From: Arthrobacter sp. H35-D1
Lineage (GTDB): Bacteria; Actinomycetota; Actinomycetes; Actinomycetales; Micrococcaceae
DNA length: 64,000 bases
Assembly: GCF_030063185.1 (NCBI RefSeq)
Contig: NZ_JASISP010000011.1
Coordinates: 1-64,000 of the forward strand
Direction of reading: 5' to 3'
Both the position numbers and the translations under genes were made by a program. Shown here one piece after another: positions 4,166 through 31,365 of this stretch (positions are counted from its first letter, which is position 1; the number at the start of each line of letters is the position of its first letter). The notes beneath the pieces were generated by a model. The model did not search any database. It was not told the origin of the DNA and saw only the letters and a program-made list of their open reading frames with translations.

Positions 4166-4534
4166 TTACGCCACGTTGATGTAGGACATGGTCAATTGGC
4201 ACGTGGTTTGGTTGCCACAGACGAGCAGCGCAGTGAGCTTCTTGGCTGCGGCCGCATGGCGGCCGATTTCGAGGAGGTGGATCAGATTAGTGGTCAGGTC
4301 TCCCAATCGAGCTGCGCCGACCATCATGCTGGAGCTGCGCAGGCTCAGTGCCGCGTCCATGGCGTTCTCGTTGTTGCCTGCTGCCAGAGCAGCTTGAATG
4401 CGCTCAAAACGTCCCGGCCACATGTCAACGTATCGGTGCACAAAATTACGGCACAGGGCACGTTCACCGAAGAGGGAATCTTCCAAGGAATGCAGGGTTT
4501 CGTTGCAGACGAGCGGCAATTTGGTATGTGTCAA
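4166..4534 (-). CDS. HPt-like helical protein lacking the phospho-histidine (copy 1)
   Basis: A 122-residue protein resembling a histidine-phosphotransfer four-helix domain: residues 60-80 read DAALSLRSSSMMVGAARL. Active HPt domains have a pattern like AHxLKSSSxxxGAxxL; here the phospho-accepting His is Leu63. A second protein of the same length at 8948-9316 has Ile at the same position, so the loss is shared. The gene lies downstream of the broken sensor kinase and just upstream of the VanZ-like gene. A non-phosphorylatable adaptor that binds a kinase or receiver is one reading; a divergent helical protein unrelated to phosphorelay is another. The similarity to copy 2 is clear; the HPt assignment is moderate. 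Confidence 0.6.
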   Translation of the reverse strand: MTHTKLPLVCNETLHSLEDSLFGERALCRNFVHRYVDMWPGRFERIQAALAAGNNENAMDAALSLRSSSMMVGAARLGDLTTNLIHLLEIGRHAAAAKKLTALLVCGNQTTCQLTMSYINVA

Positions 4535-4687
4535 AATCTTCGCCTGCCTCCTGCCCGTGTATCCCGTTGCCCCTGTTCAGGCCTGCCTTAACAGTATCTG
4601 CCGCGCGCCCGACAATGACTAGTTTTTCCGGGATTGGAACGAACCTGACTAAACCTTAAGAAACGGGGCGGCATAGCGTCTTTTTGT

Positions 4688-4701
4688 TGTCCAAATGGAC
4701 A
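4688..4701. promoter_or_regulatory. 14-bp perfect palindrome upstream of HPt-like gene 1
   Basis: TGTCCA-AA-TGGACA is a perfect inverted repeat in the 232-bp gap between the broken sensor kinase (ends 4767) and the HPt-like gene (starts 4534). A related half-site (GGGACAG) lies about 25 bp further on. It is placed where an operator for the HPt-like/VanZ transcript would be. No bound regulator is known. Confidence 0.35.
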
Positions 4702-4766
4702 GTCTTTTGATCCGAAGGGACAGCCAATTGTGGCATCCAGAGGCAGGTCTTGAGGTGATCTTGAGC

Positions 4767-6494
4767 TTAGGGAGCATCTTCCAACGCAGGCACGGCGCTG
4801 ACGCGGTTTCCGAGTGTTGAGTCGACTGTGGCCAAACACTGCGGCAGCACGAAAGTAATGGTGGTCCCTGCCCCTCGAGCACTGCGCAAGTTGATGGTGC
4901 CGCCATGTTTTGCCACGATGGTCCTTGAAATCATCAACCCCAAACCGATGCCCGGAATGGAACGCTGGACTGCGGGCTGGGCGCGGAAGAACTTGGTGAA
5001 AGCCTCAGCTTGTTCCGCGCTGTTCATGCCCATCCCGGTGTCCTTAACCTCGCACCACAGATCAGGCCCTTGCGCCCAGGCCCGCACGGTGACCGTTCCG
5101 CCGTCGGGGGAGTACTTGACGGCATTGGAGACCAGATTGTCCAACACTTGGCCCACGCGGCGGGGGTCGATGAACGCTTCCAAGGCGGGCTGAACATTGG
5201 CGGACAGCGCAACGTTGTTAGTGGCAGCCGCAGGAGCTGCCGATCCCAGGCTGTCCGCGACCAGCTGGGCAACGCCCGTCCGTGCCACCGTGAGCGTCAC
5301 GGAATCGGTGGTGAGCAGGTCTGCAACCAAGGAACTGAGCCGATCCACGCTCCGTGAAGCAATGGTCAGATATTTGCGCACATCCGGCGGCAAATCGGCA
5401 GGCTCGTCCAACACCATCTCAAGATAGCCCCGGATCGATGTCAGCGGGGTGCGGAACTCGTGTGAAACATTGGAAACGAAGTCATTTTTCGCCTCAAGGG
5501 CAGCCGTCATGTCAGTGATGTCGTGAAAGGCGATCACGGCGCCGTCGAAGTTCCCTTCCGAGTCGCGCATGGGGCGTGCCGCGGTGGAAACAGCCCTTGC
5601 CGTCTCCCCAGATCCAAGCCACACCTGATAGTTGGTGAATTCTTCGCCCTTGATGGCCCGGCGAACGGGACGGTCTTCCCCAGCCACCGGGGTGGAGGTG
5701 TCCATAGCGAAAACGAGCAGCTCCTTCTCTTCCGGGTCGGCAATGTCAGAAGGCACTGCGTGGCCGTGGAGAACGGATTGGGCAGCATTCATCAGCAGGT
5801 CATTGCCGTCCGAATCCACAGCCACCACCCCAACGGCAACAGTATCCAACACCGTTTCCAGGAGCCGCTCACGCTGTTGGCTTGCCTCCAGTGCCGTCCG
5901 CAGCTGGAGGTCCTTGGCTTCGAGCGACTTCCGTTGCGCGTTGACGGTGTCCGTCACTGCGACCACGGTGATGGCGAAGGCAAGGACCACCAACGGGAAA
6001 AGCAACGGCTTGACCAGCAACGCCGGCGTAAACCCGCTGGGAGAGGTGTGGACAGGCAACCACACGATAAGCGAAGCGGCTGCAACACTGACCACAACGG
6101 CGGTGCGCCTGGCCAGTCCTGCTGAAGCCAGCCAAAAGACCGGGAAAAATATTAGCAAACCAATAGCGGTGAGAAACTGCTGGTTCACTCCGCGGAACAG
6201 GCCAATGGCAAGAATATCAAGGTACGGAATGATGAGGACCGTTCCACGGGGCAGGCTGCCTCAAGGCACCGAGAAGGCCGCCAGGAGAAGCAGCACATGC
6301 AACGCCAAGGCAGCCAAGAACAACGGCTGATGAAACGACTGCGGATAAAAAGCCAGCGCAATGAAGACAACCGCGAGCATGATCACCGACAACGGCAGTT
6401 GGGTAAGAAATACCCGTTTCCGCAGGCTTCGAGGCCGATAGGGCTGAGCAGCAGCTACATCTTTTGAACCGGTCTGAGTCATGGTTGCTTTCAT
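4767..6494 (-). pseudogene. Membrane sensor histidine kinase interrupted by one in-frame TGA
   Basis: A 575-codon kinase paralogous to the one at 13349-15052. It has several N-terminal membrane helices, a PAS-like region, an H-box (SNVSHEFRTPLTSIRGYL), an N-box (LDNLVSNAVKYSPDG) and G-boxes. Codon 78 is TGA (6261-6263, complement strand), exactly where the paralogue has Trp in VPWGKMPRG. The frame is otherwise open on both sides. A restart at the GTG at 6188 would still make a 473-residue protein keeping four membrane helices and the whole catalytic core. The gene may therefore be a simple nonsense pseudogene or a shortened functional kinase. The HPt-like gene follows on the same strand. Confidence 0.85.
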
Positions 6495-6530
6495 CGTGGA
6501 ATATATGCGGACCAGTTGCTTGTGTCGACG

Positions 6531-7777
6531 CTACTGTTGGTAGACGTCCGGAATGCCGTCGCCGTCCGCATCTTCGGTTTCGATCTCCGCCAGCTTACGG
6601 TAGTGCTTGTTGCGCAGGCGCAGCACAACGGCTGCCAGCAGGGCCGCGACGAGCGATCCGACGAGGATGGCCACCTTGGCGTGGTTGTAGTGCGGGGCGT
6701 CATCGCCGAAACTGAGTTCGCTGATCAGCAAGGAGACGGTGAAACCCACACCGGCCAAAAGCGCCAAGCCGGCGACATCCACCCATGCCAGTCCGTCGTC
6801 GAGCTTGGCCTTGGTGGTCTTGGTGACAATCCAGGTGGAACCGAAGACCACCGATGAACTTGCCCACCACCAGCGCCAGGACAATGCCAATGGCGACGGT
6901 GTCGGTGAGGGCGCTCTTCAACCCTGCCAACCCACCGACGGCTACGCCGGCTGAGAAGAACGCGAAGAGCGGTACGGCAAGCCCCGCCGATATTGGGCGC
7001 ATGCGGTGTTCAAAATGCTCAGCCAGTCCGGGGCCCGCTTTCGGACCGCCATGCTTGGTACTGCGGAGCACGGGCACCGCAAAGCCCAAGAGCACGCCGG
7101 CCACCGTGGCGTGGACTCGGGAGGAGTACACAAGTGCCCACGTGGCGGCTGCGAGCGGAATGAGCAGGTATCAGGAACGGATGCGTTTTTGCACCAGCCA
7201 GATGAAGAGCAGCAAGGGCAAAACGGCCAAGGCGAGGTGCTGGAAGTGCATTTCGCCGGGGTAGAACACGGCGATGATGGCGATGGCAATGAGGTCGTCC
7301 ACTACGGCCAATGTCAACCGGAAGGTGCGCAGGGCGCTGGGCAGGTGCGTGCTGATGACGGCCAGAACGGCCAAGGCGAAGGCAATGTCGGTGGCGGCGG
7401 GGATGGCCCAACCCTTGAGGATTTCCGGACCGGCGGAAATGTTCACAGCCACAAAGATCAAGGCAGGGACAATGACGCCGCCCACAGCCGCGGCAATGGG
7501 CACCACGGCCCGTGCCGGGTTGCGCAGGTCGCCGGCCACAAATTCACGTTTGAGCTCAAGCCCGGCAACAAAAGAAGAAGATCGCCAGCAGACAGTCCGC
7601 CGCCCACGTGCCCAAGCTCAGGTTCAGGTGGAGGGATTCCGGGCTGATTTGGAAATCTCGCAAGGCGAAGTAGCCATCTGCAAGAGGGGAGTTTGCCCAG
7701 ACTAGCGCCACGACCGTCGCCGCCAGCAGCAGTGCTCCACCAACAGTTTCGGATCGCAGAATCTGGCTGATGCGCAC
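6531..7777 (-). pseudogene. nhaA: Na+/H+ antiporter NhaA, multiply disrupted
   Basis: All parts of NhaA can be read in order but across three frames. The N-terminus is [21 protein letters not shown] 1-bp T insertion near 7570 shifts the frame; the protein resumes as [15 protein letters not shown] and includes [11 protein letters not shown] and [10 protein letters not shown], with the Asp pair of the ion-binding site. A TGA at 7171-7173 replaces an expected Trp before [14 protein letters not shown] second 1-bp insertion near 6850 (GKFIG) then shifts into the C-terminal part ending [13 protein letters not shown]. NhaA exchanges Na+ for H+ across the cytoplasmic membrane. Three independent lesions make function very unlikely, unless they are assembly errors. 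Confidence 0.9.
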
Positions 7778-7929
7778 GGACTCGCCTTAGCTGCCGCGGG
7801 AGAATATATTGAGCGGGGAAGGAAGGGTCATCGAGTTGTAACTTCTAGCTTTGGGTGATGTTCTGTGGGAACAATTGGGTTCGACAATGTCATTGCCGAC
7901 CAGACTTCCCGGCACACCTGATGAATACT

Positions 7930-8947: not shown

Positions 8948-9316
8948 CTAACCTTGCCGCAGGTATGAGGCAACGAGTTGGGCGACCGTTTGGTCTCCGC
9001 AGCGATGCAACTGGTCAAGCATCGTGGCTGCCTTGATGTAGTGCCCTCTTTTCAGCAGCTGGACAAGTTCTGCCGCCAGCCGACTCAGCCGTGGCACACC
9101 GGCCATGGAACTGGAAGAGTAAAGACTGATTGCTGCGTCAACGGCTTTCGCCCACTCACAGCTGTCGACGGCACCACGGATCCGTTCAAAACGCTGAGGC
9201 CACATCTTTGCGAAGCTGCGCACAAATTCGAGCGCCGGCGGCTTTTGACCTTGTAAGGAGTCTTCCAGTGCCTGCAGCGCTTCCGTATCTACCAAAGGCA
9301 ACTCTGTGTGCGCCAT
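8948..9316 (-). CDS. HPt-like helical protein lacking the phospho-histidine (copy 2)
   Basis: A 122-residue paralogue of the protein at 4166-4534. Both begin M(T/A)HT(K/E)LPLV, share MWPxRFERI near residues 38-46, and end in related tails. Residues 60-75 read DAAISLYSSSSMAGVP; position 63, His in active HPt domains, is Ile, and the following Lys is Tyr. It starts at ATG 9316 with GAGAGGAG and TTGGAG upstream and is divergent from the SipW operon across a 287-bp gap. If the SipW operon is ignored, it lies downstream of sensor kinase 2 on the same strand, as copy 1 does for kinase 1. This supports a regulatory partnership but does not prove it. Confidence 0.6.
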   Translation of the reverse strand: MAHTELPLVDTEALQALEDSLQGQKPPALEFVRSFAKMWPQRFERIRGAVDSCEWAKAVDAAISLYSSSSMAGVPRLSRLAAELVQLLKRGHYIKAATMLDQLHRCGDQTVAQLVASYLRQG

Positions 9317-9603
9317 CGCGGCTCCAACTCCTCTCGGAACAATTGGTGACTGCTCGGCCTTGGGGATCTGCCTGCAACAATACCGTGTGTTTGTGCAGCC
9401 GTGGCAGAGTTCTTGCGCGTTTCTTTGGGGCTCCCAAGGGTGGTCTTGCGTTGTTCTTGAGTATTTGGGATATCGGGTTTTTCTTCGGTTTTTCTTAGGC
9501 CGATCTTCCGGATTTTTAGTGCTATTTCTTGAGCTGGGAGCGGCATTGTTGTTCTTACCGGCAGGAAAGCTTGCTGGGAAGAACACGAACAAGGGGTCTC
9601 AGA
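9317..9603. promoter_or_regulatory. Divergent intergenic region: HPt-like 2 and SipW operon
   Basis: These 287 bp hold no gene. The half nearest the operon is strikingly T-rich on the plus strand (9440-9560, with repeated TTTTTC and TTCTTC runs), unlike the surrounding coding DNA. It should contain the promoters for both the minus-strand HPt-like gene and the plus-strand export operon. No clean palindrome or certain -10/-35 pair could be picked out by eye. Confidence 0.5.
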
Positions 9604-10143
9604 ATGAACAAGATGGCTAAAGGCGCAATTGCAACCGGTGTTGGCGTTATCCTGCTGGTGGGTGGCGGCGGAACGCTGGCTACCTGGAACCAAGCAAGCA
9701 ATGTTTCCATGGGCGAGGTTGTCTCCGGTGATTTGAACCTGGAACCCGGCGCAGGTGTGTGGACAAACGCCGCAGGGACCGAGATTCCTGTAATTAGCCA
9801 GTACAAGGTGGTTCCCGGGGATGCCCTGACGTATACGCAGCCTCTGAACGTTTCGCTCAAGGGCGACTTGATGGCCGCCAAGCTAACAGTGGCCCTCCCT
9901 GACAGCTACGCCCAGTATGCGGAATACGGCACTGTCTCGGCAACAACGTTGACCAAAGCTGGAAGCGCAGAGGTTTTGCCGGAGATTCTGAAGCCGGCGA
10001 ACGCCGGAAAGGTCAACGCCTCCACAACGTTTACGTTCAATGTGGATACCCCGGATCGGATTGGCACGAACGCTTCCGCTGACCTTGGCGAGATCAGCTA
10101 CAAGCTAGAGCAGCAGGCGCCGGCAAGTACCCTCCAGCCGTAA
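9604..10143 (+). CDS. SipW-dependent exported protein, cargo 1
   Basis: A 179-residue protein with an alternate-type signal peptide: a basic start (MNKMAKGA), a hydrophobic core ending VGGGGTLATWNQ, and the WN(Q/K)A pattern typical of proteins cleaved by SipW-like peptidases. Downstream, GEVVSGDLNLEPG matches the G-x-(V/I)-x-(S/A)-x-D-(L/F) spacing of cargo 2. The mature part is predicted mostly beta strand, in the style of TasA or camelysin-like fibre proteins, but similarity is only at pattern level. The ATG at 9604 is chosen because the signal peptide begins there; an earlier in-frame ATG at 9529 adds an unlikely cysteine/arginine-rich stretch. It is the first gene of the five-gene operon. 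Confidence 0.75.
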   Translation: MNKMAKGAIATGVGVILLVGGGGTLATWNQASNVSMGEVVSGDLNLEPGAGVWTNAAGTEIPVISQYKVVPGDALTYTQPLNVSLKGDLMAAKLTVALPDSYAQYAEYGTVSATTLTKAGSAEVLPEILKPANAGKVNASTTFTFNVDTPDRIGTNASADLGEISYKLEQQAPASTLQP

Positions 10144-10216
10144 CTCTCACCAACAAGACCCCGGTGGCGTGCGGGGCCCAGCCCGGCACGCCACCACCCC
10201 TCCGACAGAAGCAGCC

Positions 10217-10804
10217 ATGAAAAGCACCCGAGCACTGAAAGCAACCGGCCTTGTGCTGATTGCCGTGGTGTTGGGACTGCTCACCGTCCAAGGAAGTTAC
10301 GCACTTTGGAACAAAGCGGCCATTGCCGCTGCGGGGACAATTCAGGCAGCTGATTTTCGGATCAGCCTCACAGACACCATCACCAGCGTGGTGACTGACA
10401 TGACGTTGGCCGACGGGACAGCTGCGACACTTTCGCTGAGCACCACACCCGCAGGAGTGGTCATCCCAGGACAAAGCACATACGCGGGCGTGGAACTGGG
10501 CAATGAAACCAACGCCGGCGGGCTGTTCACGGTCCGGGCAAGCACCTCCACCCCCGTCGTCGACAACAATGCCGGCTCACCCTTGGCACCGTACTTGACC
10601 CTCAAGGTGGTCGCCGCGAATTCGTTGCCCCAATGTAGCTCAGCTGCACTGTACGAGGACGCCTCCGAGACGGCCGAAACAGACATCCCCAAGCAGGACA
10701 CCGGGGTGTTCTGCTTCCAAGTCAGCCTCGCAGACAACATGCCAGCAAGCCTCAGCGGACAGAGCGCCACAGTCGCCATTCCGATCACCGTCAATCAACT
10801 CTAA
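10217..10804 (+). CDS. SipW-dependent exported protein, cargo 2
   Basis: A 195-residue protein with an alternate-type signal peptide (MKSTRALKATG, then a hydrophobic core ending VQGSYALWNKAA). The ALWN motif and the downstream GTIQAADFRISL parallel cargo 1. Two Cys in the C-terminal half (PQCSS and VFCFQV) could form a disulfide outside the cell. The start is ATG 10217. It lies 73 bp after cargo 1 and 11 bp before the peptidase gene. The most likely role is a second structural or adhesive subunit exported and cleaved by the neighbouring SipW peptidase; the exact fold is not recognisable by eye. Confidence 0.75.
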   Translation: MKSTRALKATGLVLIAVVLGLLTVQGSYALWNKAAIAAAGTIQAADFRISLTDTITSVVTDMTLADGTAATLSLSTTPAGVVIPGQSTYAGVELGNETNAGGLFTVRASTSTPVVDNNAGSPLAPYLTLKVVAANSLPQCSSAALYEDASETAETDIPKQDTGVFCFQVSLADNMPASLSGQSATVAIPITVNQL

Positions 10805-10815
10805 AAGGGAACACC

Positions 10816-11427
10816 ATGTCTGTCATCAGCCACGCCAAGGCTCCTGTTGATCTCAACAGCGCGGCAATTGCCAATGAATCCCGTCAGGGCGGGCCCTTGC
10901 GCATGCTGGGACGCGGAGTGGCCTATGTGCTGCTGCTCATCGCCGCCCTTGGTGCATTGGCGATGATTGTTGTTCCCTTGGCCACTGGCTCACAGACTTA
11001 CACGGTGCTGACCAGTTCCATGGCGCCGAAGTATGCTCCCGGAACTTTCCTGGTGGTCAAGCCAGCTCCTTTCGCCAGCCTTCAGGTGGGCGACATCATC
11101 ACCTACCAGATTGAGTCCGGCAAACAAGGGGTCATTTCCCACCGAATCACGGCCGTGGGAGCCACCCAAAGCGGGGAACGGGTGCTGACCACCAAGGGCG
11201 ACAACAATTCGCTGGAGGATTCCGCCCCTGTCCAAGAAGTGCAGGTCATGGGCAAGATGCTCTATGCGGTTCCGTATGTGGGTTTTGTTGCCAACGCCGT
11301 GGGCCAGGACAGGGACATTATTTTGCCCGTCATTGCTGCCGCATTCATCGGATTTGGTGCGTTGAGCATGGTCAAGGGGACGTTGGAGAAGAAGCGCGGC
11401 ATACAGACGGGCCGACGCGCCAAATGA
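10816..11427 (+). CDS. sipW: SipW-type (ER-like) signal peptidase I
   Basis: A 203-residue membrane peptidase. One N-terminal helix (about residues 35-57) precedes the catalytic domain and a second hydrophobic segment lies near residues 168-186. The nucleophile is Ser68 in TSSMAPKYAPG. The general base of bacterial SPase I (Lys) is replaced by His109 in GVISHRIT, and Asp129 in TTKGDNN completes the triad, as in SipW and archaeal/eukaryotic Sec11 peptidases. Such enzymes are usually dedicated to a few neighbouring substrates. Here the two upstream genes and the last gene of the operon carry matching signal peptides. Its stop overlaps the next start (ATGA), indicating translational coupling. 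Confidence 0.92.
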   Translation: MSVISHAKAPVDLNSAAIANESRQGGPLRMLGRGVAYVLLLIAALGALAMIVVPLATGSQTYTVLTSSMAPKYAPGTFLVVKPAPFASLQVGDIITYQIESGKQGVISHRITAVGATQSGERVLTTKGDNNSLEDSAPVQEVQVMGKMLYAVPYVGFVANAVGQDRDIILPVIAAAFIGFGALSMVKGTLEKKRGIQTGRRAK

Positions 11428-12329
11428 GCACAAGCATGCCGCCAAACCGACTTGGCGGTCCCGCGCGGTTGGTCATGGCGGCGACGGTGGCAAGCGTTGT
11501 CACGGGACTGCTGTTGGCTGCCCCCGCGGCAGGCACCGAAAACAAGAACGACTTTCTACAACTCAGCAACGACGGCATGAACTACAACACCACTTTGGCA
11601 CCAACTCTTTTTAGGAGCACCAATGCCTACGTTCCAGGCGAATCAAGGCGTGACACCATTTGGGTACGCAACGGCGGAAGAGATACAGCGCACTTCTCCT
11701 TTGGGGTGCGAAGCACAGGCCAAGCAACAGGGGATACCCTGCCCGGATACATGCGCCTGCAAGCCAGCGCTCCAGGACATGAAGAAGCACTGGCCGCCCT
11801 TCCTTCCAAGCGTGGCTGCACTCCGGTCGTCAATGGTTGGACGCTGGCCGCAGGCCACGTACTGCTCCTGACCTTGGACTTGGACCTGGCTTTGCAGGCA
11901 CCGAATTCAACGCGAAAACAAGATTCAACTTTTGATCTTGTTTTCGTATTGCAGGGCATTGACGGGGGACAGCCCGTATCACCGTGCACTGCTCTACCCA
12001 TGGCCACCCTGGAGAGTGCTTCAATTGGCATTCTCCCCGTCGCCGGAGGCACAGCAGAAGCAAACTCGAAACTCCCGAATTTGCTGACCGACGCTGAAAC
12101 CGGCGCGCTCATTCACGATGCTGAATCCGGCATGGTGGCTTCATACGCAGCCACCGACCATGGTAGAGCCCCGCGGCTCAGGGCCAATTCGCGGGACGCC
12201 TGGCTCGTGGCCGAGCTACCCCACAGTAATGTTGTTGCCAACAGCCGCAGCCCATGGCCGTGGCTCTTGACGCTCAGTGCAAGCGCTTACGTGCTGATCT
12301 CGCTTAGGAGACGGAGAAGGACTCAATGA
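11424..12329 (+). CDS. Secreted, C-terminally membrane-anchored protein of the SipW operon
   Basis: A 301-residue protein with a conventional Sec signal peptide (hydrophobic core near residues 17-36, ending LLLAAPAAGTEN). A large extracellular part follows, then a C-terminal transmembrane helix (PWPWLLTLSASAYVLISL) with a stop-transfer tail RRRRRTQ. The N-terminal third (DGMNYNTTLAPTLF, AYVPGESRRDTIWVRNGG) resembles proteins often seen beside SipW substrates in actinobacteria, where a beta-sandwich is followed by an anchor. Unlike the cargo proteins it lacks the WN motif. It overlaps the peptidase gene by four bases and the next gene by four bases. It may anchor or nucleate the cargo on the membrane; that is inference. 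Confidence 0.7.
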   Translation: MSTSMPPNRLGGPARLVMAATVASVVTGLLLAAPAAGTENKNDFLQLSNDGMNYNTTLAPTLFRSTNAYVPGESRRDTIWVRNGGRDTAHFSFGVRSTGQATGDTLPGYMRLQASAPGHEEALAALPSKRGCTPVVNGWTLAAGHVLLLTLDLDLALQAPNSTRKQDSTFDLVFVLQGIDGGQPVSPCTALPMATLESASIGILPVAGGTAEANSKLPNLLTDAETGALIHDAESGMVASYAATDHGRAPRLRANSRDAWLVAELPHSNVVANSRSPWPWLLTLSASAYVLISLRRRRRTQ

Positions 12330-13345
12330 GCCCGCAGGAACCTCAGGAACACAGCCAAAAAGTGAACGAACCGGCGGTACGCCGTGGACAGAGCCTTCGC
12401 AATCTGCCGGGTTTCACCACTGCAGCCGTTGCGTTCGCCATGGTCCTGTTGCTGGGCGGCGGCGGAATCGCCATCGCCAAATGGAACCAAAGCGCTACGG
12501 CGACGATCAACATCACGGCTGGCGCGGCACCAACGTCTGCTCCAACTCCGGTCCCAACGCAGGCACCCAGTGCTTCGCCAAGCCCAACGCCCGCCCCGAC
12601 CGTTGCTCCCACGACTCCAGCCCCAGTTCCGGAGGGCTCCGGGAACATAGTTGCCAATCCAATGATCGCCAAGCGGCCAGCGCAGATGGACCTTGAAGAA
12701 CTCGGATGCAAAAACAAGGGGTCCGGAAAAGGCGGAACCGCCCGCTTCAAATTCGAGTGGGACGATGACGGGGAGAACACCACTCGCTACGTGGTGACTT
12801 TGACGGCCATTGCCGCAGGAAAGACCTACAGCCAGACCCAAATCGTGAAGGACGACGAAACCACTTTCAACCTTGAGAACAAGCCCGCAGACTACGGCGA
12901 ATACATCCTTCGGGTCCAGCCCATGAATGGCGATGTTGCCGGAGACCCGGTCTACTTAACCTTCCTTTACTCGGCAGGGCTGCGCGCCAACTGCTATGAC
13001 TACCGCCGGACGGGTCCGTCCCCACTGGGTGCCTTCACCGTCAATGCAGCCACGCATGACAACGTTCTCAACCTCACATGGACGGCAGCCAAGGCCACGG
13101 GCTACGTGGTGAGCATCGAGCAATCGGGCGAAGGTGGTTACGGGGCAGAGTTCGCCACCACCACGCTTGGATCTTCGCTAACTTTCCCGCCACGAGTCCT
13201 GGACCAATGGGGAAATACCGTGACGCGGGGCAACCACTACTTCGGAAAATATTCACTTCGCATCCAACCCATGAATGGGACCCAGGCCGGTGATCCGGTG
13301 TACAAGACCGTTCAATACGGTCCAAACGACTTCACCGTTTGGTGA
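12326..13345 (+). CDS. SipW-dependent exported protein with two repeated fibronectin-like modules, cargo 3
   Basis: A 339-residue protein. A hydrophobic signal segment ends LLLGGGGIAIAKWNQSA, carrying the same WN motif as cargo 1 and 2. A Pro/Thr/Ser/Ala-rich linker of about 35 residues (TPVPTQAPSASPSPTP) follows, then two homologous modules. Each module ends in a near-identical phrase: YILRVQPMNGDVAGDPVYLT and YSLRIQPMNGTQAGDPVYKT. The modules look like fibronectin-III-type beta sandwiches. The start is ATG 12326 (GGAGAAGGA upstream), overlapping the previous stop. A long N-terminal cytoplasmic stretch (about 30 residues) is typical of this signal class. It ends three bases short of the convergent kinase gene. 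Confidence 0.75.
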   Translation: MSPQEPQEHSQKVNEPAVRRGQSLRNLPGFTTAAVAFAMVLLLGGGGIAIAKWNQSATATINITAGAAPTSAPTPVPTQAPSASPSPTPAPTVAPTTPAPVPEGSGNIVANPMIAKRPAQMDLEELGCKNKGSGKGGTARFKFEWDDDGENTTRYVVTLTAIAAGKTYSQTQIVKDDETTFNLENKPADYGEYILRVQPMNGDVAGDPVYLTFLYSAGLRANCYDYRRTGPSPLGAFTVNAATHDNVLNLTWTAAKATGYVVSIEQSGEGGYGAEFATTTLGSSLTFPPRVLDQWGNTVTRGNHYFGKYSLRIQPMNGTQAGDPVYKTVQYGPNDFTVW

Positions 13346-13348
13346 TCA

Positions 13349-15052
13349 TCAAATGGCAGGCTCAAGGCTGAGGATGCAGGCAGGAATGACGAAGCTCATG
13401 GTGGTTCCCGCACCTTGCAGGCTCTCGACGGTCAAAGAACCACCATGAGTTTCAATGATGGTCTTGGAGATCATCAACCCCAAGCCAATGCCGGGGATTC
13501 CACGCTCCACAGCAGTTCCAGCCCTGAAGAACTTCTGAAAAAGTCCGGCTTGTTCCAAATTACTCATCCCAAGTCCAGTGTCCTTGACCTGGCAGTGCAG
13601 ATCGGTGCCGTCCACCCATGCGCTCACGGTGAGCGTGCCGCCGTCGGGGGAGTATTTCACGGCGTTTGAGACGAGGTTGTCCAGCACCTGGCTGATGCGC
13701 ACGCCGTCGACCATGGCCAGCAGCGGCTGCGGGCACAGCAGCTCCACGCTGACGGCGTTGGCTGCCGCAGCCGGAGCAGCAGAAGCCAGGGAATCGGCAA
13801 GCAGCAAGGCAACGTCGCTGGGGGACCGGTCCACGGACATGGTGGTGGTGGTCAACAAATCCGAGACCAGGCCATTGAGCCGTTCCGCGTTCCGATCCGC
13901 AATTCTCAGATACTTTTCAACTTCCTTTGGCGGCAACCCGGGCTCATCGAGCACCATGGCCAGATATGACTGGATGGCCGTCAGAGGAGTGCGGAACTCG
14001 TGGGAAACGTTCGCCACAAAGTCATCCTTGGCGGCCAAGGCGTTAACCATGTCGGTGACGTCGTGGAAGGCAATGACAGCGCCGTCCGCGACGCCGTCAT
14101 CTTGGATGATGGAGCGGGCCGTGGTTGACAGCGCCCTGGCTTGCTCGCCGACGCCAATCCAGATTTGATAATTGGTGAAGGACTCGCCTCTCACCGCGCG
14201 GCGAACGGGCCGGGCATCGGCCGCCAGTGAAACCCTGTCAGTGCCAAAGACCAGAAGTTCCTTCTCTTCAGGGTCGGGGATGTCTGCCGGGACGCCCAAG
14301 GCATGGATGGCTTCCTGGGTGGAGTTCATCAGGATGTCATGGCCATTGGAATCCACCGCTACAACGCCAACACCCACAGTGTCCACAATGGTCTCCATGA
14401 GCCGCTCGCGGCGCTGGCTCTCCTCCAAGGCTGCCCGCAGTTGCACATCCTGTGTCATCAAGGCATCGCGCTGTTTGTCCATGCTGGTGGTCAGGGCCAC
14501 GGCCGCAATGGAAAAGGCAAACATCATGAACGGAAACAGCAAGGGCCTGACCAATTGTTCCACCGAGGCTGGGCCGGGCTCCAGCATCACCGGAATCCAG
14601 ACAATCAGAAGACTGGCTACCGCGCTGGAAGCGATGGCCGTTTTGGGCGCGTACCCGGATGCGCAGAGCCAAAACACCGGAAACAGCGCCAACAGGCCCA
14701 CAGAGGACAACAGCTCCGTGCTCCCCTCGCGAAAGAATGACACGGCAACAAAATCAAGATAGGGAATGAGCAGAAACGAACCGCGCGGCATCTTGCCCCA
14801 AGGAACGGCCACGGAAGCGGCGAGCAATACCGCGCTCAGGGCCAGGGCCGTGATGAGTTGCGGTTCAGCAAAAAGTGACGGCTGCAGGAATGCAACGAGG
14901 GTGGTTGCCAAAGCCACAGTCAGTGTGAAGGGAAGCTGGGCCAGAAAAATCCGCGTCCGCACAGTGCGTTCGTGAAAATGACGCTGGATCAACGGGGTTC
15001 CAAGAGTTTCCAACAGTACTGCGGATGTGTAAGGCAAAGTAATTTCCGTCAC
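13349..15052 (-). CDS. Membrane sensor histidine kinase
   Basis: A 567-residue kinase. About six membrane helices occupy residues 35-190 with very short loops, so the ligand may be sensed in the membrane. A coiled linker and PAS-like domain (about 205-335) follow, then the dimerisation domain with phospho-acceptor His351 in SHEFRTPL. The ATPase domain has an N-box in LDNLVSNAVKYSPDG and a G-box in GIGLGLMISKTI. It is divergent from the response regulator at 15272, its likely partner, and convergent with the SipW operon with a 3-bp gap. It is paralogous to the broken kinase at 4767-6494. The start is a GTG at 15052. Confidence 0.9.
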   Translation of the reverse strand: MTEITLPYTSAVLLETLGTPLIQRHFHERTVRTRIFLAQLPFTLTVALATTLVAFLQPSLFAEPQLITALALSAVLLAASVAVPWGKMPRGSFLLIPYLDFVAVSFFREGSTELLSSVGLLALFPVFWLCASGYAPKTAIASSAVASLLIVWIPVMLEPGPASVEQLVRPLLFPFMMFAFSIAAVALTTSMDKQRDALMTQDVQLRAALEESQRRERLMETIVDTVGVGVVAVDSNGHDILMNSTQEAIHALGVPADIPDPEEKELLVFGTDRVSLAADARPVRRAVRGESFTNYQIWIGVGEQARALSTTARSIIQDDGVADGAVIAFHDVTDMVNALAAKDDFVANVSHEFRTPLTAIQSYLAMVLDEPGLPPKEVEKYLRIADRNAERLNGLVSDLLTTTTMSVDRSPSDVALLLADSLASAAPAAAANAVSVELLCPQPLLAMVDGVRISQVLDNLVSNAVKYSPDGGTLTVSAWVDGTDLHCQVKDTGLGMSNLEQAGLFQKFFRAGTAVERGIPGIGLGLMISKTIIETHGGSLTVESLQGAGTTMSFVIPACILSLEPAI

Positions 15053-15271: not shown

Positions 15272-16078
15272 ATGGACAACTCTCGTGTGGCAGTCGTCGT
15301 TGAAGACGATGCGGATATTCGGGAACTTGTCAGTGTGATCCTGCACCAGTCAGGTTTTGAGGTGCACACCGCCTCCAATGGTGCGGACGGCGTGGCTGCA
15401 ATCCAAGCGCACCGTCCGGCCATTGTCACCCTTGACCTGGGTCTGCCGGACATTGACGGTTTCGAAGTTGCCAGGCGCGTCCGGCTCTTCAGCGACGCGT
15501 ACATCATCATGCTGACCGGGCGCGCCGATGAGATGGACACCTTGTTGGGCCTGGAAACAGGCGCGGACGACTATCTCACCAAACCGTTCCGGCCCCGTGA
15601 ACTACGCGCGCGCATCAGCGCCATGATGCGTCGCCCGCGGATTTCCGCTGAAGGAACTCCAGCAGCCGGGGAAAACGCCTCGCCAGCACACAACAGTGCG
15701 GAAACAGGGTCCGTTGGCGCGCCGGAGCATGCCCCGGCAGCGGTTGTTGCGGCCCCCCAACCGCAAAGCCTCAACGGCCTGATGCTGAACAGCGGCGACC
15801 GCACAGCGGAGGTGGACGGCAACGAACTCGAATTGACCCGCACCGAATTTGACCTGCTCCATGCACTCGTGGACAGCGGCAAGCAGGTGCGCACCAAGTC
15901 GGATCTTGTGCGCCGGCTCCGCGGGGAGGAATACGACGTGGGCAGCTACATCAGCGACGCCGACGAACGGACCATAGAAGTGCACATGGCCAACCTGCGC
16001 CGCAAAATGGGGGACAACCCGCGGGATCCACGCTGGATTAAAACAGTTCGAGGGGTGGGCTACCGCCTGGTGCACTGA
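15272..16078 (+). CDS. OmpR/PhoB-family response regulator
   Basis: A 268-residue regulator. The receiver domain has Asp12/Asp13, phospho-acceptor Asp55 in TLDLGLPD, Thr82 and Lys104. An Ala/Pro-rich linker of about 60 residues (127-185) separates it from a C-terminal winged helix (LTRTEFDLLHAL, DERTIEVHMANLRRKMG, TVRGVGYRL). The linker is much longer than the usual 10-20 residues. ATG 15272 is preceded by GGGGGAAAA; an in-frame ATG at 15200 gives an unlikely extension. It is divergent from sensor kinase 2, 219 bp away, so the two form a probable two-component pair. The SipW operon and HPt-like gene nearby are plausible targets. Confidence 0.92.
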   Translation: MDNSRVAVVVEDDADIRELVSVILHQSGFEVHTASNGADGVAAIQAHRPAIVTLDLGLPDIDGFEVARRVRLFSDAYIIMLTGRADEMDTLLGLETGADDYLTKPFRPRELRARISAMMRRPRISAEGTPAAGENASPAHNSAETGSVGAPEHAPAAVVAAPQPQSLNGLMLNSGDRTAEVDGNELELTRTEFDLLHALVDSGKQVRTKSDLVRRLRGEEYDVGSYISDADERTIEVHMANLRRKMGDNPRDPRWIKTVRGVGYRLVH

Positions 16079-16787: not shown

Positions 16788-19700
16788 ATGAGTCTTGCAG
16801 GTTTGCGGACAGCGCTGTCACAGGATCCAAGCTTCGCCAGGGTTCGCACTTTTGCTGCCGCCGACCCGGCCAGCCGAAGTGCCGACGTCGCCTTCACCGC
16901 TCCTGCCGGCATGCGCGCGGTCCTGTTGGCGGAAGCTGCCGACGGTTTGGCCGAGGCTGCCGAACGACTGGCAGCTGATGTCAACGCCTCCCTGGACCGT
17001 TCCGGAGTGGTTTTGGCGGTGACGGCGACCGGCCGCGAAGCCGAAGATACCGTAGCAGCCCTGCGCTCCTACCTGCCCGACGACGCCGTGGCCGAGTTCC
17101 CCAGCTGGGAAACCCTCCCACACGAGCGCCTTTCGCCGCGCTCTGACACCGTGGGCCGCCGCCTGGCCGTGCTGCGTCGGCTGGCCCATCCCGAGTTCGA
17201 TGCCGGGAGCGGCCTGCGCGTCGTGGTAGCACCCATCCGTGCCGTGGTGCAGCCGTTGGTGGCCGGGCTGGGCGAACTGGTGCCGGTGCGGGTGAAGGTC
17301 GGGGAGGACATCCCCTTCACCGATCTCATCAGGAAGCTGTCCGATGCCGCCTACGCCCGTGTTGACATGGTCACGCACCGCGGCGAATTCGCCGTGCGCG
17401 GCGGCATTCTTGACGTGTTTTCACCGACCGAAAGCCACCCTGTCCGCATTGAGTTCTTTGGCGACGAGGTCGAGGCAATGCGCTGGTTCAGCGTCGCCGA
17501 CCAGCGCACCCTGACGAGTGTCTCCGGACCCATTGCACACCCGTCCGAACTGTACGCACCGCCATGCCGGGAAATCCTCATCACTCCCACCGTCATGGGC
17601 CGGGCCGCGAAGCTGAAGGATGCCATGCCTGCCGCGGCCGGCATGCTGGAGAAGATTGCCGGCGGCATTGCCGTGGAGGGCATGGAGTCGCTGGCCCCGG
17701 CGCTGGTGGACGGGATGGTGCCGATGACCTCGCTGCTGCCTGCCGGCTCCATCGCCGTGGTGCTTGATCCGGAAAAGGTCAGCGCCCGGGCCCACGACCT
17801 GGAATCCACCAACGAGGAATTCCTGGAGGCGGCCTGGTCCACCGCGTCCGAGGGTGGCACCGCACCGCTGGATTTGGCCTCGGCGCACCACACGGAAGGT
17901 GGCGTCGACTTGTCTTCCGCAGGGTTCAAGTCCCTGGCCCAGACGAGGGAAAGGGCGTTGGAGGACGGCGTGAGCTGGTGGACGTTGAGTTCGCTGGCCC
18001 AGGACGAAGAGCTCGACACCGGCACCGACGTGTTGAACCTGCATGCCCGCGAACCCCGCGGCTACCGCGGCGACGTGGCGGAGATGATGGAATTCCTTGG
18101 TTCCCGGATCAAGGACCAATGGCGGGTGGTGGTGGCCACCGAAGGCCCCGGCCCGGCCCAGCGCCTGGCCGAGCTGTTCCACGAAGCCAACATTCCGGCG
18201 TCGCGCGTGGAAACACTTGACCATGAACCGCAGCCGGGGATCATCGAAGTGACGACGGCAGACACCGGCCGCGGCTTCGTCTTCGACTCGCTGAAGCTGG
18301 GGCTGCTGACGGAGGCGGACCTGTTGGGGCGTGCGTCGGCGGTGTCCACCAGGGACATGCGCAAGATGCCCTCCAAACGGCGCAACGCGGTGGACCCGCT
18401 GCAGCTCACGGCGGGGGACTACGTGGTCCACGAGCAGCACGGCGTGGGCAAGTTCGTGGAGCTGATCCAGCGCAAGGTGGCCGGAGGGTCGGCCAGCTCT
18501 GCAGGCGGCGCCGGGCTGCGCGAGTACCTGGTGCTTGAATACGCCCCCTCCAAGCGCGGTGCGCCCGGGGACAGGCTGTTTGTGCCCACCGACCAGCTGG
18601 ACCAGGTGACAGCGTACGTGGGCGGCGACGCTCCGGCCCTGTCCAAGATGGGCGGCTCCGACTGGGCAGCCACCAAGGGCAAGGCCCGCAAGGCCGTGAA
18701 GGAGATTGCCGGGGAACTCATCCGGCTGTACTCGGCCCGCATGGCGAGCCGCGGGCACGCATTCGGGCCCGACACGCCGTGGCAGGCCGAACTGGAGGAG
18801 GCGTTCCCGTATGTGGAAACCCCCGACCAGCTCGTGGCTATCAACGAGGTCAAGGCGGACATGGAGAAGGAGGTCCCCATGGACCGGCTGATCTCCGGGG
18901 ACGTGGGCTATGGCAAAACCGAGATCGCCGTTCGTGCCGCCTTCAAGGCTGTGCAGGACGGAAAGCAGGTGGCCATCCTGGTCCCGACTACCTTGCTGGC
19001 GCAGCAGCACTATGAGACGTTCAACGAACGCTTTTCCGGATACCCCATCCGTGTGAGCCCGCTGTCGCGCTTCCAAACCAGCAAGGAATCCAAGGAAATT
19101 GTGGAGGGCGTGAAAAACGGGACGGTGGATGTTGTCATTGGCACGCACCGGCTGCTCTCCAAGGACTTCGCGTTCAAGGACCTGGGCCTGGTGATTGTGG
19201 ATGAAGAACAGCGGTTCGGCGTGGAGCACAAGGAAGCGCTGAAGAAGATGCGCACCAACGTGGACGTGCTGGCCATGAGTGCCACCCCCATTCCCCGCAC
19301 CCTTGAAATGTCCATGACGGGCATCCGCGAGACTTCCACCCTGGCCACCCCTCCCGAGGAACGCCACCCCGTGCTGACCTATGTCGGCGCGCACAGCGAC
19401 AAGCAGGTGGGCGCGGCCATCCGACGCGAGTTGATGCGTGAAGGCCAGGTGTTCTATGTGCACAACCGGGTCAAGTCGATTGATCGCACTGCGGCGCACA
19501 TTCAGCAGCTGGTGCCCGACGCCCGCGTGGCCGTGGCCCATGGTCAGATGAGCGAGTCGCGGCTGGAGCAGATCATTGTTGATTTCTGGGAAAAGCGTTT
19601 TGACGTGCTGGTGTGCACCACCATCATTGAAACCGGGCTGGACATTTCCAATGCCAACACGCTCATCGTGGAACAGGCCAACAATTACGGGCTCTCGCAG

Positions 19701-20468
19701 CTGCATCAGTTGCGCGGGCGCGTGGGTCGCGGACGCGAACGTGCTTACGCCTACTTCCTGTACCCGGCGGACAAGCCGTTGGGTGAGGTGGCGCTTGAGC
19801 GGCTGAAGGCGGTGGCCGCTCACAATGAGCTGGGTGCAGGCATGGCCTTGGCCATGAAGGATCTTGAAATTCGCGGGGCGGGAAACATGCTCGGCGGGGA
19901 ACAGTCCGGACACATCCAGGGTGTGGGTTTTGACCTGTACATTCGTTTGGTGGGGGAGGCTGTGGCCGATTTCCGCGGCGACGGCGAGGAGCGGGCCGCG
20001 GAGATGAAGATCGAGCTGCCCATCAACGCACACCTGCCGCACGACTACGTCCCGGGGGAGCGGCTGCGCCTTGAGGCCTACCGCAAGCTGGCCGCGGCCG
20101 ACACGCTTGACGGCATTGCCGAGGTGGAGGCTGAACTCATCGACAGGTATGGGGAATTGCCGCCGGCGGCAGTGAACCTTATTGCTGTGGCGCACTTCAA
20201 GGTGCTGGCCAGGGCTGCGGGACTCACCGATGTGGCGCTGCAGGGGAACTTCATCAAGTTTGCCCCGGCCGAGTTGCCCGAGTCCAAGGAGATGCGCCTA
20301 ACGCGCATGTACCCGGGGTCCTTGGTGAAGCCGGCGTTGAACTCTGTGCTGATCCCCAAGCCCAAGACTGCCCGTATTGGCGGACGCGACTTGGCCGATG
20401 CGGAAGTGCTCAAATGGGCCCAGGGAGTGTTGGAGGCCATCTTCGACACAACCCCGGCCAGCCTGTAA
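16788..20468 (+). CDS. mfd: Transcription-repair coupling factor Mfd
   Basis: A 1226-residue ATP-dependent translocase that displaces RNA polymerase stalled at DNA lesions and recruits UvrA. In order: a UvrB-like N-terminal module (about 1-350), an RNA-polymerase interaction domain starting near GDYVVHEQHGVGKF (about 543), then the RecG-like translocase. The translocase has Walker A SGDVGYGKTEIA (about 701), DEEQ in VIVDEEQRFG (about 803) and [16 protein letters not shown]. The C-terminal TRCF domain begins near LPHDYVPGERLRLEAYRKL. ATG 16788 follows AAGGAGAAA; an upstream in-frame start at 16632 would add a non-conserved stretch. Full length, so this is the functional copy; a 3' fragment is duplicated at 30178-31188. 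Confidence 0.96.
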   Translation: MSLAGLRTALSQDPSFARVRTFAAADPASRSADVAFTAPAGMRAVLLAEAADGLAEAAERLAADVNASLDRSGVVLAVTATGREAEDTVAALRSYLPDDAVAEFPSWETLPHERLSPRSDTVGRRLAVLRRLAHPEFDAGSGLRVVVAPIRAVVQPLVAGLGELVPVRVKVGEDIPFTDLIRKLSDAAYARVDMVTHRGEFAVRGGILDVFSPTESHPVRIEFFGDEVEAMRWFSVADQRTLTSVSGPIAHPSELYAPPCREILITPTVMGRAAKLKDAMPAAAGMLEKIAGGIAVEGMESLAPALVDGMVPMTSLLPAGSIAVVLDPEKVSARAHDLESTNEEFLEAAWSTASEGGTAPLDLASAHHTEGGVDLSSAGFKSLAQTRERALEDGVSWWTLSSLAQDEELDTGTDVLNLHAREPRGYRGDVAEMMEFLGSRIKDQWRVVVATEGPGPAQRLAELFHEANIPASRVETLDHEPQPGIIEVTTADTGRGFVFDSLKLGLLTEADLLGRASAVSTRDMRKMPSKRRNAVDPLQLTAGDYVVHEQHGVGKFVELIQRKVAGGSASSAGGAGLREYLVLEYAPSKRGAPGDRLFVPTDQLDQVTAYVGGDAPALSKMGGSDWAATKGKARKAVKEIAGELIRLYSARMASRGHAFGPDTPWQAELEEAFPYVETPDQLVAINEVKADMEKEVPMDRLISGDVGYGKTEIAVRAAFKAVQDGKQVAILVPTTLLAQQHYETFNERFSGYPIRVSPLSRFQTSKESKEIVEGVKNGTVDVVIGTHRLLSKDFAFKDLGLVIVDEEQRFGVEHKEALKKMRTNVDVLAMSATPIPRTLEMSMTGIRETSTLATPPEERHPVLTYVGAHSDKQVGAAIRRELMREGQVFYVHNRVKSIDRTAAHIQQLVPDARVAVAHGQMSESRLEQIIVDFWEKRFDVLVCTTIIETGLDISNANTLIVEQANNYGLSQLHQLRGRVGRGRERAYAYFLYPADKPLGEVALERLKAVAAHNELGAGMALAMKDLEIRGAGNMLGGEQSGHIQGVGFDLYIRLVGEAVADFRGDGEERAAEMKIELPINAHLPHDYVPGERLRLEAYRKLAAADTLDGIAEVEAELIDRYGELPPAAVNLIAVAHFKVLARAAGLTDVALQGNFIKFAPAELPESKEMRLTRMYPGSLVKPALNSVLIPKPKTARIGGRDLADAEVLKWAQGVLEAIFDTTPASL

Positions 20469-20893
20469 AGCCAAGGCCGAGGCGGCCCAAGATTCACAGT
20501 TGCTGCCGGTGGGCCAACACTGGCAGAACGCAGTCACTTCCGCGGAGATTCACACCCTACGCCGGAAAGAGTCCGTCCGTAAAAGTGGATGGGCATAGGT
20601 GCACATTGGGTGCGGCGGGTACCGGAATTAGTGGCCCCGAACAACCGTGGTTTTCTGTGCAACCAACGTGGGTGACAGGGCAGCTTCAACCCTTGGAACC
20701 AAGGGGAAGCCGTGGCGTTCCACGAAAATCCGATTCAGTTCGGTGTGATCCGGGCCAGTTCGGCAGGATAGGTGTTGAAATCGACAACACACCGGATCTG
20801 ACCGGCCCACCAACTCGTCGCGAACACTGCTACCGCACGAAGGTGTAAATGGCACCATTCGATGACACGCTTGAATGAGGAGAGGTCGCTGCC
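20469..20893. other. Intergenic region with decayed operator
   Basis: No gene is supported here. The first 60 bp (20469-20530) match the sequence after the duplicated mfd fragment (31189-31250). At 20850-20867 lies TGGCACC-ATTC-GATGACA, a version of the perfect palindrome TGTCACC-ATTC-GGTGACA in front of the intact TA copy at 33760-33777; two arm positions no longer pair. Confidence 0.5.
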
Positions 20894-30177: not shown

Positions 30178-31188
30178 CCGGGTCAAGTCGATTGATCGCA
30201 CGGTGGCGCACATCCAGCGGCTGGTGCCTGACGCTCGTGTGGCGGTGGCTCATGGTCAGATGAGCGAGTCGCGGTTGGAGCAGATCATTGTTGATTTCTG
30301 GGAGAAGCGTTTTGACGTGCTGGTGTGCACCACCATCATTGAAACCGGGCTGGACATTTCCAATGCCAACACGCTCATTGTGGAGCAGGCCAACAATTAC
30401 GGGCTCTCGCAGCTGCACCAGTTGCGCGGGCGCGCGGGCGCGTGGGCCGCGGACGCGAACGCGCGTACGCCTACTTCCTGTACCCGGCGGACAAGCCGTT
30501 GGGTGAGGTGGCGCTTGAGCGGCTGAAGGCGGTGGCCGCCCACAATGAGTTGGGCGCGGGCATGGCCTTGGCCATGAAGGATCTTGAAATTCGTGGGGCG
30601 GGAAACATGCTCGGAGGGGAACAGTCGGGACACATCCAGGGCGTTGGTTTTGACCTGTACATCCGTTTGGTGGGGGAGGCTGTGGCCGATTTCCGGGGCG
30701 ACGGCGAGGAGCGGGCTGCGGAGATGAAGATCGAGCTGCCCATCAACGCGCACTTGCCGCACGACTATGTGCCGGGGGAGCGGCTCCGACTTGAGGCTTA
30801 CCGCAAGCTGGCCGCGGCGGACACGCTTGACGGCATTGCCGAGGTGGAGGCTGAACTTATCGACAGGTACGGGGAGCTGCCGCCGGCGGCCGTGAACCTT
30901 ATTGCCGTGGCGCACTTCAAGGTGCTGGCCAGGGCTGCGGGACTCACCGATGTGGCGCTGCAGGGGAACTTCATCAAGTTTGCCCCGGCCGAGTTGCCCG
31001 AGTCCAAGGAGATGCGCCTAACGCGCATGTACCCGAGATCGCGGGTGAAGCCGGCGTTGAACTCTGTGCTGATCCCCAAGCCCAAGACTGCCCGTATTGG
31101 CGGACGCGACTTGGCCGATGCGGAAGTGCTCAAATGGGCCCAGGGAGTGTTGGAGGCCATCTTCGGCACAACCCCGGCCAGCCTGTAA
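30178..31188 (+). pseudogene. Duplicated 3' third of mfd
   Basis: The sequence matches mfd from 19466 to its stop, beginning within the translocase domain (RVKSIDRT) and containing the whole TRCF C-terminal domain. An extra 8 bp near 30430-30445 (GCGCGGGC duplicated) shifts the frame inside the LRGR motif. The 5' part differs from mfd by many synonymous changes, whereas 30900-31188 is nearly identical, suggesting recent gene conversion or a donor from another strain. There is no promoter or start of its own. The junction with the upstream block uses a 4-bp CCGG microhomology. Confidence 0.92.
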
Positions 31189-31365
31189 GGCGGTCCGAGG
31201 CGGCCTAAGATTCACAGTTGCTGTCAGCCGCCCAACATCTGCAAGGTTGTCACTATTTGCAAAGAAGATTCTTTTCTGCGCCGGAAAGTCGTCTGCCTTT
31301 GGGTCAGGAGAGGACGAGGCCTATGGCGCGTTCAGGTAGGGCAGATAGTGGGATTTATGGAGCTG

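Follow-up and report, generated by a model that had tools for sequence, protein, structure and literature searches.

Introduction

Fibres that depend on the signal peptidase SipW are known in detail from Bacillus. According to excerpts of PMC9674648, the donor strand of TasA lies at residues 28-38, directly after the signal, and its removal spoiled both fibres and pellicles. TasA filaments are started by TapA, which donates its N-terminus (excerpts of PMC10151520), and a related job was described for CapP in Bacillus cereus (excerpts of PMC13082335).

Here we analysed a stretch of 64,000 nucleotides of Arthrobacter sp. H35-D1 (positions 1 to 64,000 of contig NZ_JASISP010000011.1, hereafter the window), which carries at 9604-13345 a five-gene operon encoding a SipW-type peptidase, three putative cargo proteins (G1, G2 and G5) and an anchored protein (G4). 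A preliminary description had proposed this operon as an actinobacterial counterpart of the TasA/SipW system. The five-gene system is real and conserved, and it is probably structural. We lean, by a small measure, toward the view that it specifies a SipW-dependent, TasA-like surface fibre of the donor-strand type, with adjacent two-component control exerted via TCTTGAG repeats. NCBIfam already names the families of G1 and the peptidase; G2, G4 and G5 of the window reached no curated family cut-off. Searches of the titles and abstract beginnings of open-licence PMC literature found no actinobacterial SipW/TasA-like operon, and no description of the remaining operon parts or the control layer.

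Gene organization and distribution of the operon

The coordinates of the open reading frames (ORFs) confirmed the five genes, the final three of which are joined by 4-bp overlaps (Table 1). G1 matched the NCBIfam model TIGR04089 with 131 bits against a cut-off of 60 along the whole profile (1-179 of 179), and was thus assigned to this family. TIGR04089 was detected in 62 of 148 genomes of the bacterial family, above the cut-off in 59, and across the phylum in 5 of 296 genomes, with two above the cut-off and the window's own among them. The window's genome held a single such place.

Conservation was investigated in 60 loci, each selected by a TIGR04089 match, and a SipW relative adjoined the match in all 60. 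The gene maps displayed several operon layouts. The layout of the window, designated type A and having the order G1, G2, SipW, was observed in 30 of the 60 loci. When companion genes were sought within about 6-7 kb of these 30 loci, G5 was found in 29, the gene for an Hpt-fold protein in 22, a response regulator in 20, a histidine kinase in 19 and G4 in 14, while the Hpt, kinase and regulator genes occurred together in 17. As the gene order was conserved across many genomes, the operon is not a product of chance. Type B began with G1 and another cargo; SipW and G4 came next, and behind them a third cargo and a larger protein, part of which is SipW-like. In a second layout (L061, L063, L067, L102, L103, L105 and others), the last protein contains a SipW-like part and has approximately 350-400 residues, with a cargo of its own adjoining.

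A scan of named genomes gave 78 loci, chiefly from Arthrobacter, Pseudarthrobacter and Paeniglutamicibacter, along with Citricoccus, Tessaracoccus, Rothia, Leifsonia and several metagenome bins; the query was biased to type A, and the 78 loci are no census. The closest matches of G1 were Arthrobacter proteins with 60-64% identity, save for one record labelled Sporosarcina. This best named match (L141, Sporosarcina beigongshangi) has an 18.5-kb locus of 66.9% GC with an Arthrobacter-type operon, and the record label or the contig may be wrong.

The signal peptidase and the signals of the cargos

The catalytic residues Ser68, His109 and Asp129 of the peptidase, named in the preliminary description, were confirmed and were invariant in 130 of 130 aligned rows. 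The alignment comprised the window protein and its relatives, with ORFs of at least 330 residues excluded and some strains represented twice. The peptidase scored 88.7 bits with TIGR02228 (cut-off 51.85), indicating membership of the SipW/endoplasmic reticulum (ER) type, and 72.5 bits with the Bacillus SipW model NF046067, below the equivalog cut-off of 190. Its best relatives in the PDB were the SEC11 subunits (SEC11A/C) of the ER signal peptidase complex (E 3.5e-9). The genome contained one place above the TIGR02228 cut-off and two weaker ones elsewhere. Taken with the TIGR04089 score of G1 and the conservation described above, these results supported well the earlier proposal that an actinobacterium has a SipW-type peptidase with cargo of its own.

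The hydrophobic N-termini of the three cargos end in ATWNQ (G1), ALWNK (G2) and AKWNQ (G5). The SipW-signal model TIGR04088 matched G1 with 24.6 bits (cut-off 19) as the sole such place in the genome, and the same genome search did not find window G2 or G5. Among relatives, TIGR04088 matched 31 of 48 for G2 (E <=0.1) and 1 of 15 for G5. Window G5 gave 16.4 bits with TIGR04089 over residues 33-75, below the cut-off. The assignment of three signals ending in WN is thus firm for G1, where a profile recognizes it, and good for G2 through its relatives; for G5 it is mainly given by the motif.

The predicted fold of G1 and the N-terminal segment shared with G2

The structure of G1 was modelled from 69 sequences, and the model was a beta-sandwich with a mean predicted local distance difference test score (pLDDT) of 83, whose core was confident from residue 41 onward and whose N-terminus was unstructured. 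In the Foldseek search, the Hyper2 tube ranked first (E 0.0093), the TasA fibre second (E 0.0098, prob 0.98) and CanA fourth, all of which are self-assembling extracellular proteins. Comparison by VIA, in which ranks and likenesses are among the matches listed, placed CanA first (Z 6.2) and gave 5.8 for Hyper2; TasA was at rank 10 (Z 5.5) with a root-mean-square deviation of 5.7 over 140 aligned residues and 16% identity. The comparison of the cargo 1 fold with TasA, proposed as a check in the preliminary description, gave a likeness at a high Foldseek rank, but a weak one (E 0.0098; VIA Z 5.5, tied). The high positions of Hyper2 and CanA in both comparisons raise the idea that the cargos form a coat or a tube, on the pattern of archaeal cannulae or of a patchy surface layer, instead of a linear fibre. 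We regard this as improbable, as the rows of Hyper2 and CanA were tied with that of TasA and the gene set appears closer to the sipW operons of Bacillus than to cannulae loci.

The relationships among the operon proteins were investigated by comparison of their profiles. With whole proteins, G1 and G2 matched over 75 columns, signal included, and G2 and G4 over 112 columns, whereas G1 and G4 were not joined. When the signals were removed, the match between G1 and G2 was limited to the first 20 mature residues with a score of 33.1 (against 17.9 for the highest of 30 column shuffles and 12.2 for the reversed control), that between G2 and G4 extended over 103 columns with a score of 39.5 (best shuffle, 15.4), and that between G1 and G4 scored 22.2 (best shuffle, 19.3). 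The comparisons of G5 with the other proteins fell within the shuffles, and the shared mature N-terminal segment is thus shown for G1 and G2 only. In G1, this segment occupies the same place as the donor strand of TasA, as judged from the excerpts of PMC9674648. Each of the proteins G2, G4 and G5 contains a conserved pair of Cys residues. A PDB search with the G2 profile gave nothing usable (best E 0.12).

G4 and G5

In the model of G4, a signal-like helix (residues 13-31) is followed by a beta domain, whose strands span 45 to 209, and a disordered stretch leads on to a second helix (278-300), after which comes RRRRR. The mean pLDDT over ten residues was at least 90 for residues 71-190 and 80-85 for 41-70. 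These predicted features agree with the signal and C-terminal anchor previously ascribed to the protein. Foldseek detected AvmM (E 3.4e-6), the PapD-like domain of CEP192 (1e-5), Spo0M (3.6e-5) and chains of FimC complexes (3.8e-4), and several glycosidase domains were also among the matches. The VIA scores were 9.7 for a glycosidase domain, 9.6 for CEP192, 9.1 for chains of Caf1M complexes, 8.9 for the FimH lectin and 8.1 for WxLIP of Enterococcus faecium. Since many VIA rows were tied, we claim nothing narrower for G4 than resemblance of its model to a PapD-like immunoglobulin-like (Ig) fold. No hit was obtained in a PDB search with the G4 profile.

The common occurrence of Ig-like folds and the glycosidase domains among the G4 matches could also fit cargos that are secreted enzymes or binding proteins using the SipW route for another purpose. 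The window cargos, however, reached no curated enzyme family cut-off, and, apart from sporadic weak matches, no enzyme family recurred among the relatives of G2, G4 and G5; we give this explanation very little weight. The absence of any enzyme family above its cut-off for the window proteins, together with the G1 model, favours structural over enzymatic cargo, as the preliminary description had supposed.

G4 was detected in 37 of 148 genomes by profile and in 28 by single sequence. Of the 37 genomes, 36 had a TIGR04089 place of at least 50 bits (Fisher p 1.7e-16, uncorrected for kinship), and 40 of 42 G4 places lay within 4 kb of a TIGR04089 place. The other two were one on a contig without TIGR04089 and one borderline match in a genome without it. 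The LPXTG anchor family PF00746 matched 3 of 24 G4 relatives. A sortase-assembled pilus was set aside, as window G4 had no LPXTG-type anchor match with PF00746; no search was aimed at sortases.

The proline-rich stalk and two related modules of G5 noticed earlier were borne out; the stretch in which the modules match has 17 identical residues out of 26. The fibronectin type III model fn3 matched 6 of 15 G5 relatives (best E 3.1e-5) and did not match G5 of the window. A PDB search with the G5 profile yielded nothing usable (best E 0.046).

The stalk and FN3-like modules of G5 and the membrane anchor of G4 are also what would be expected if the peptidase processed separate, non-polymerising surface proteins, which would form an adhesion complex held on the membrane by G4, with G5 binding a ligand. 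The weak match of G1 to a fibre fold, tied with other Ig-like proteins, fits this explanation as well. On the other hand, the 20-residue segment common to otherwise different mature cargos is hard to explain unless it is a working part, and fibre-forming proteins head the Foldseek list of G1. We consider such a complex rather unlikely, though a serious candidate.

The proposed control layer adjacent to the operon

Neither a control layer nor the PapD-like fold of G4 figured in the preliminary description. Divergent from the operon lies the gene for the Hpt-fold protein, which has Ile at codon 63 in place of the phospho-acceptor His. At the acceptor column, confirmed by alignment to the His of the solved Hpt domains 7c1i and 3iqt, 60 of the 62 rows had Leu and the other 2, one of them the window protein, had Ile; the rows comprised 49 distinct sequences. 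A true phosphorelay via this protein was thus rejected, as the acceptor His was missing in 62 of 62 rows. The Hpt family was found in 66 of 148 genomes, in at least 24 of these within 6 kb of a TIGR04089 place. A strict tie between the pseudo-Hpt protein and the operon was also discarded, because the family also occurred in some genomes, G009 and G052 among them, that gave no TIGR04089 match. The searches of PMC titles and abstract beginnings retrieved nothing on bacterial Hpt proteins lacking the His.

Downstream of the operon lie genes for a membrane sensor histidine kinase (HK1) and an OmpR-type response regulator. His351 of HK1 was kept in 57 of the 57 rows with a letter at this position (58 in total), and Asp55 of the regulator in 61 of 62 rows.

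Direct repeats of TCTTGAG are located upstream of G1. They were counted in the 250 bp upstream of G1 with at most one mismatch and compared with base-shuffled copies, the related strains not being independent. Where a type-A locus had an Hpt, kinase or regulator gene in its vicinity (52 distinct loci), the copies numbered 125 in total, in comparison with 16.9 in the shuffled sequences and 40 on the other strand. In 30 type-A loci without these three genes, 51 copies were counted against 6.9 after shuffling, and 24 loci not of type A had 12, compared with 8.2. Two genomic places carried the paired pattern TCTTGAG-N4-TCTTGAG with at most one mismatch, one of them upstream of G1 and the other next to a second pseudo-Hpt/kinase pair; two mismatches gave 14 places, compared with 10 for the reversed pattern.

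A possible hairpin before the ribosome-binding site, seen in close relatives only, is a weak lead. Its covariation score was reached by 24 of 500 shuffles and its count of pairs changed on both sides by 193 of 500, and it was not found in many distant loci. Scans for sigma-70 promoters and terminators performed no better than shuffles.

Proposed mechanism

In the SipW-dependent fibre that we tend to favour, G1, G2 and G5 would be exported by the alternate signal, and the co-encoded peptidase would cut near the conserved Trp, freeing an N-terminal segment. By analogy with TasA, the freed segment of G1 or G2 may serve as a donor strand filling the groove of a neighbouring subunit, and cleavage would thereby license polymerisation. 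G1 would be the likely main subunit, with G2 as a minor or junction subunit. Where present, G4, with its predicted ordinary signal and C-terminal anchor and its G2-related domain, might be a membrane-bound base or assembly chaperone, as suggested by its fold, anchor and synteny, and would thus do work comparable to that of the Bacillus proteins TapA or CapP. G5 with its stalk and FN3-like modules could act as a tip or side adhesin. The kinase and the OmpR-type regulator would control the promoter through the TCTTGAG repeats, to which the regulator may bind, and tuning would be provided by the Hpt-fold protein, unable to carry phosphate on the usual His.

The step from operon to fibre draws on the weak fold match of G1 and on the segment shared with G2, and several results weigh against it. 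Foldseek returned no match to the G1 model at E 0.001 or better, and TasA was tied with sortase pilins in VIA. The TasA/camelysin family PF12389 had no match in the genome at E 0.001, in a search whose control found B. subtilis. A single-sequence search of the PDB with G1 gave nothing, and the profile search returned photosystem subunits and designed knot proteins, the latter low-complexity helices at a best E of 0.00034, and no TasA. Beyond the signal, the profile of G5 was not like that of G1 or G2. With G4 found in only 14 of the 30 type-A loci, an obligate role in these loci is not supported; G4 cannot be a base that type A always needs, unless another protein takes its place. The spacings of the TCTTGAG repeats were mixed, namely 52 bp (16 cases), 22 (14), 11 (13), 45 (8) and 34 (5). 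Sites of OmpR-type regulators fit spacings of 11 and 22 bp, not 52. The notion of a TasA/SipW counterpart is plausible, with the weak fold likeness and the missing Pfam TasA/camelysin match counting against it.

More tentatively, Arthrobacter and its relatives might possess a fibre system of their own, in which SipW-licensed donor-strand polymerisation is combined with the G2-related, membrane-anchored, PapD-like G4, a kinase/regulator switch acting on TCTTGAG and gating by the unphosphorylatable Hpt protein. The whole combination is a doubtful proposition.

Other features of the window

A second copy of the pseudo-Hpt and kinase genes lies at 4166-6500, with a perfect TCTTGAG pair between them. 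The second kinase gene (HK2) is interrupted near its N-terminus by an in-frame stop upstream in the same frame. This set seems to resemble the control module, without the operon.

An nhaA-like antiporter gene (6480-7780, minus strand) seems broken, with pieces in different frames and an internal stop. The end of mfd (16788-20468) is duplicated approximately 10 kb away with 94% identity (19466-20505 and 30178-31223), and further short stretches between 20960 and 60762 are duplicated at 93-96% identity. An ORF of 484 codons (45032-46486) has, by eye, the look of an insertion-sequence transposase.

Table 1. Positions of the operon, the control layer and the second module in the window
Feature	Position	Strand	Basis
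G1, cargo 1, TIGR04089 family, likely main subunit	9604..10143	+	profile match, beta-sandwich model
G1 residues 28-47, predicted mature start, candidate donor strand common to G2	9685..9744	+	profile comparison; TasA position (excerpts of PMC9674648)
G2, cargo 2, conserved Cys pair, G4-related domain	10217..10804	+	profile comparison
SipW/ER-type signal peptidase	10816..11427	+	Ser68/His109/Asp129, profile match
G4 with signal-like helix at the N-terminus, PapD-like Ig domain and membrane anchor at the C-terminus	11424..12329	+	structure model
G5, cargo 3, proline-rich stalk and two FN3-like modules	12326..13345	+	sequence comparison
Hpt-fold protein, divergent from operon, Ile at codon 63 for the phospho-acceptor His	8948..9316	-	match to Pfam Hpt at 30.3 bits against a cut-off of 24.6
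TCTTGAG-like direct repeats at 9411, 9444, 9455 and 9527 (9444/9455 11 bp apart)	9411..9533	+	
Possible hairpin before the ribosome-binding site, weak lead	9558..9577	+	close relatives only
HK1, membrane sensor histidine kinase	13349..15052	-	HisKA and HATPase_c
OmpR-type response regulator	15272..16078	+	Response_reg and Trans_reg_C
Second pseudo-Hpt copy, start codon provisional	4166..4534	-	147.4 bits with Hpt profile
Perfect TCTTGAG-N4-TCTTGAG pair beside second pseudo-Hpt	4748..4765	+	
HK2, second kinase copy, 57% identical to HK1 over 455 residues	4767..6188	-	sequence comparison

Comparison with known systems

A conserved system in Arthrobacter and its relatives would offer harmless soil bacteria for testing how signal removal licenses donor-strand assembly, by what means a Gram-positive fibre is fastened to the membrane, and which role an Hpt protein without His plays in a two-component system. 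The operon shares with tapA-sipW-tasA of B. subtilis a SipW-type peptidase with its own cargo, a beta-sandwich subunit in the G1 model, and a conserved segment right after the signal, at the place that the excerpted source gives for the TasA donor strand. Unlike that system, it has no Pfam TasA/camelysin match, its peptidase scores below the Bacillus SipW cut-off, and it includes the additional G2, G4 and G5 and an adjacent two-component system. No TapA relative turned up in the window operon, no search having been aimed at TapA.

The TasA/CalY/CapP system of B. cereus, as far as the excerpts of PMC13082335 describe it, likewise has at least two SipW-type subunits and a partner held at the cell surface by its C-terminal part. 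G4 differs from CapP, to which it is likened by description, in its membrane helix and PapD-like model. Of the NCBIfam models, TIGR04089 includes G1, and TIGR04090 is named for the BsaA family of SipW-dependent biofilm matrix proteins; these models name proteins only and extend neither to the other parts nor to the control.

In fold only, the G4 model resembles chains from Caf1M complexes and from FimC complexes, and WxLIP. In contrast to these PapD-like chaperones and WxLIP, G4 is predicted to be membrane anchored and is encoded in a SipW operon, in which no usher or WxL protein was seen. The Hpt-fold protein can be likened, by description, to the pseudo-HPt proteins of plants, which also have the Hpt fold without the acceptor His, but the window protein is bacterial and is encoded beside an ordinary kinase and an OmpR-type regulator.

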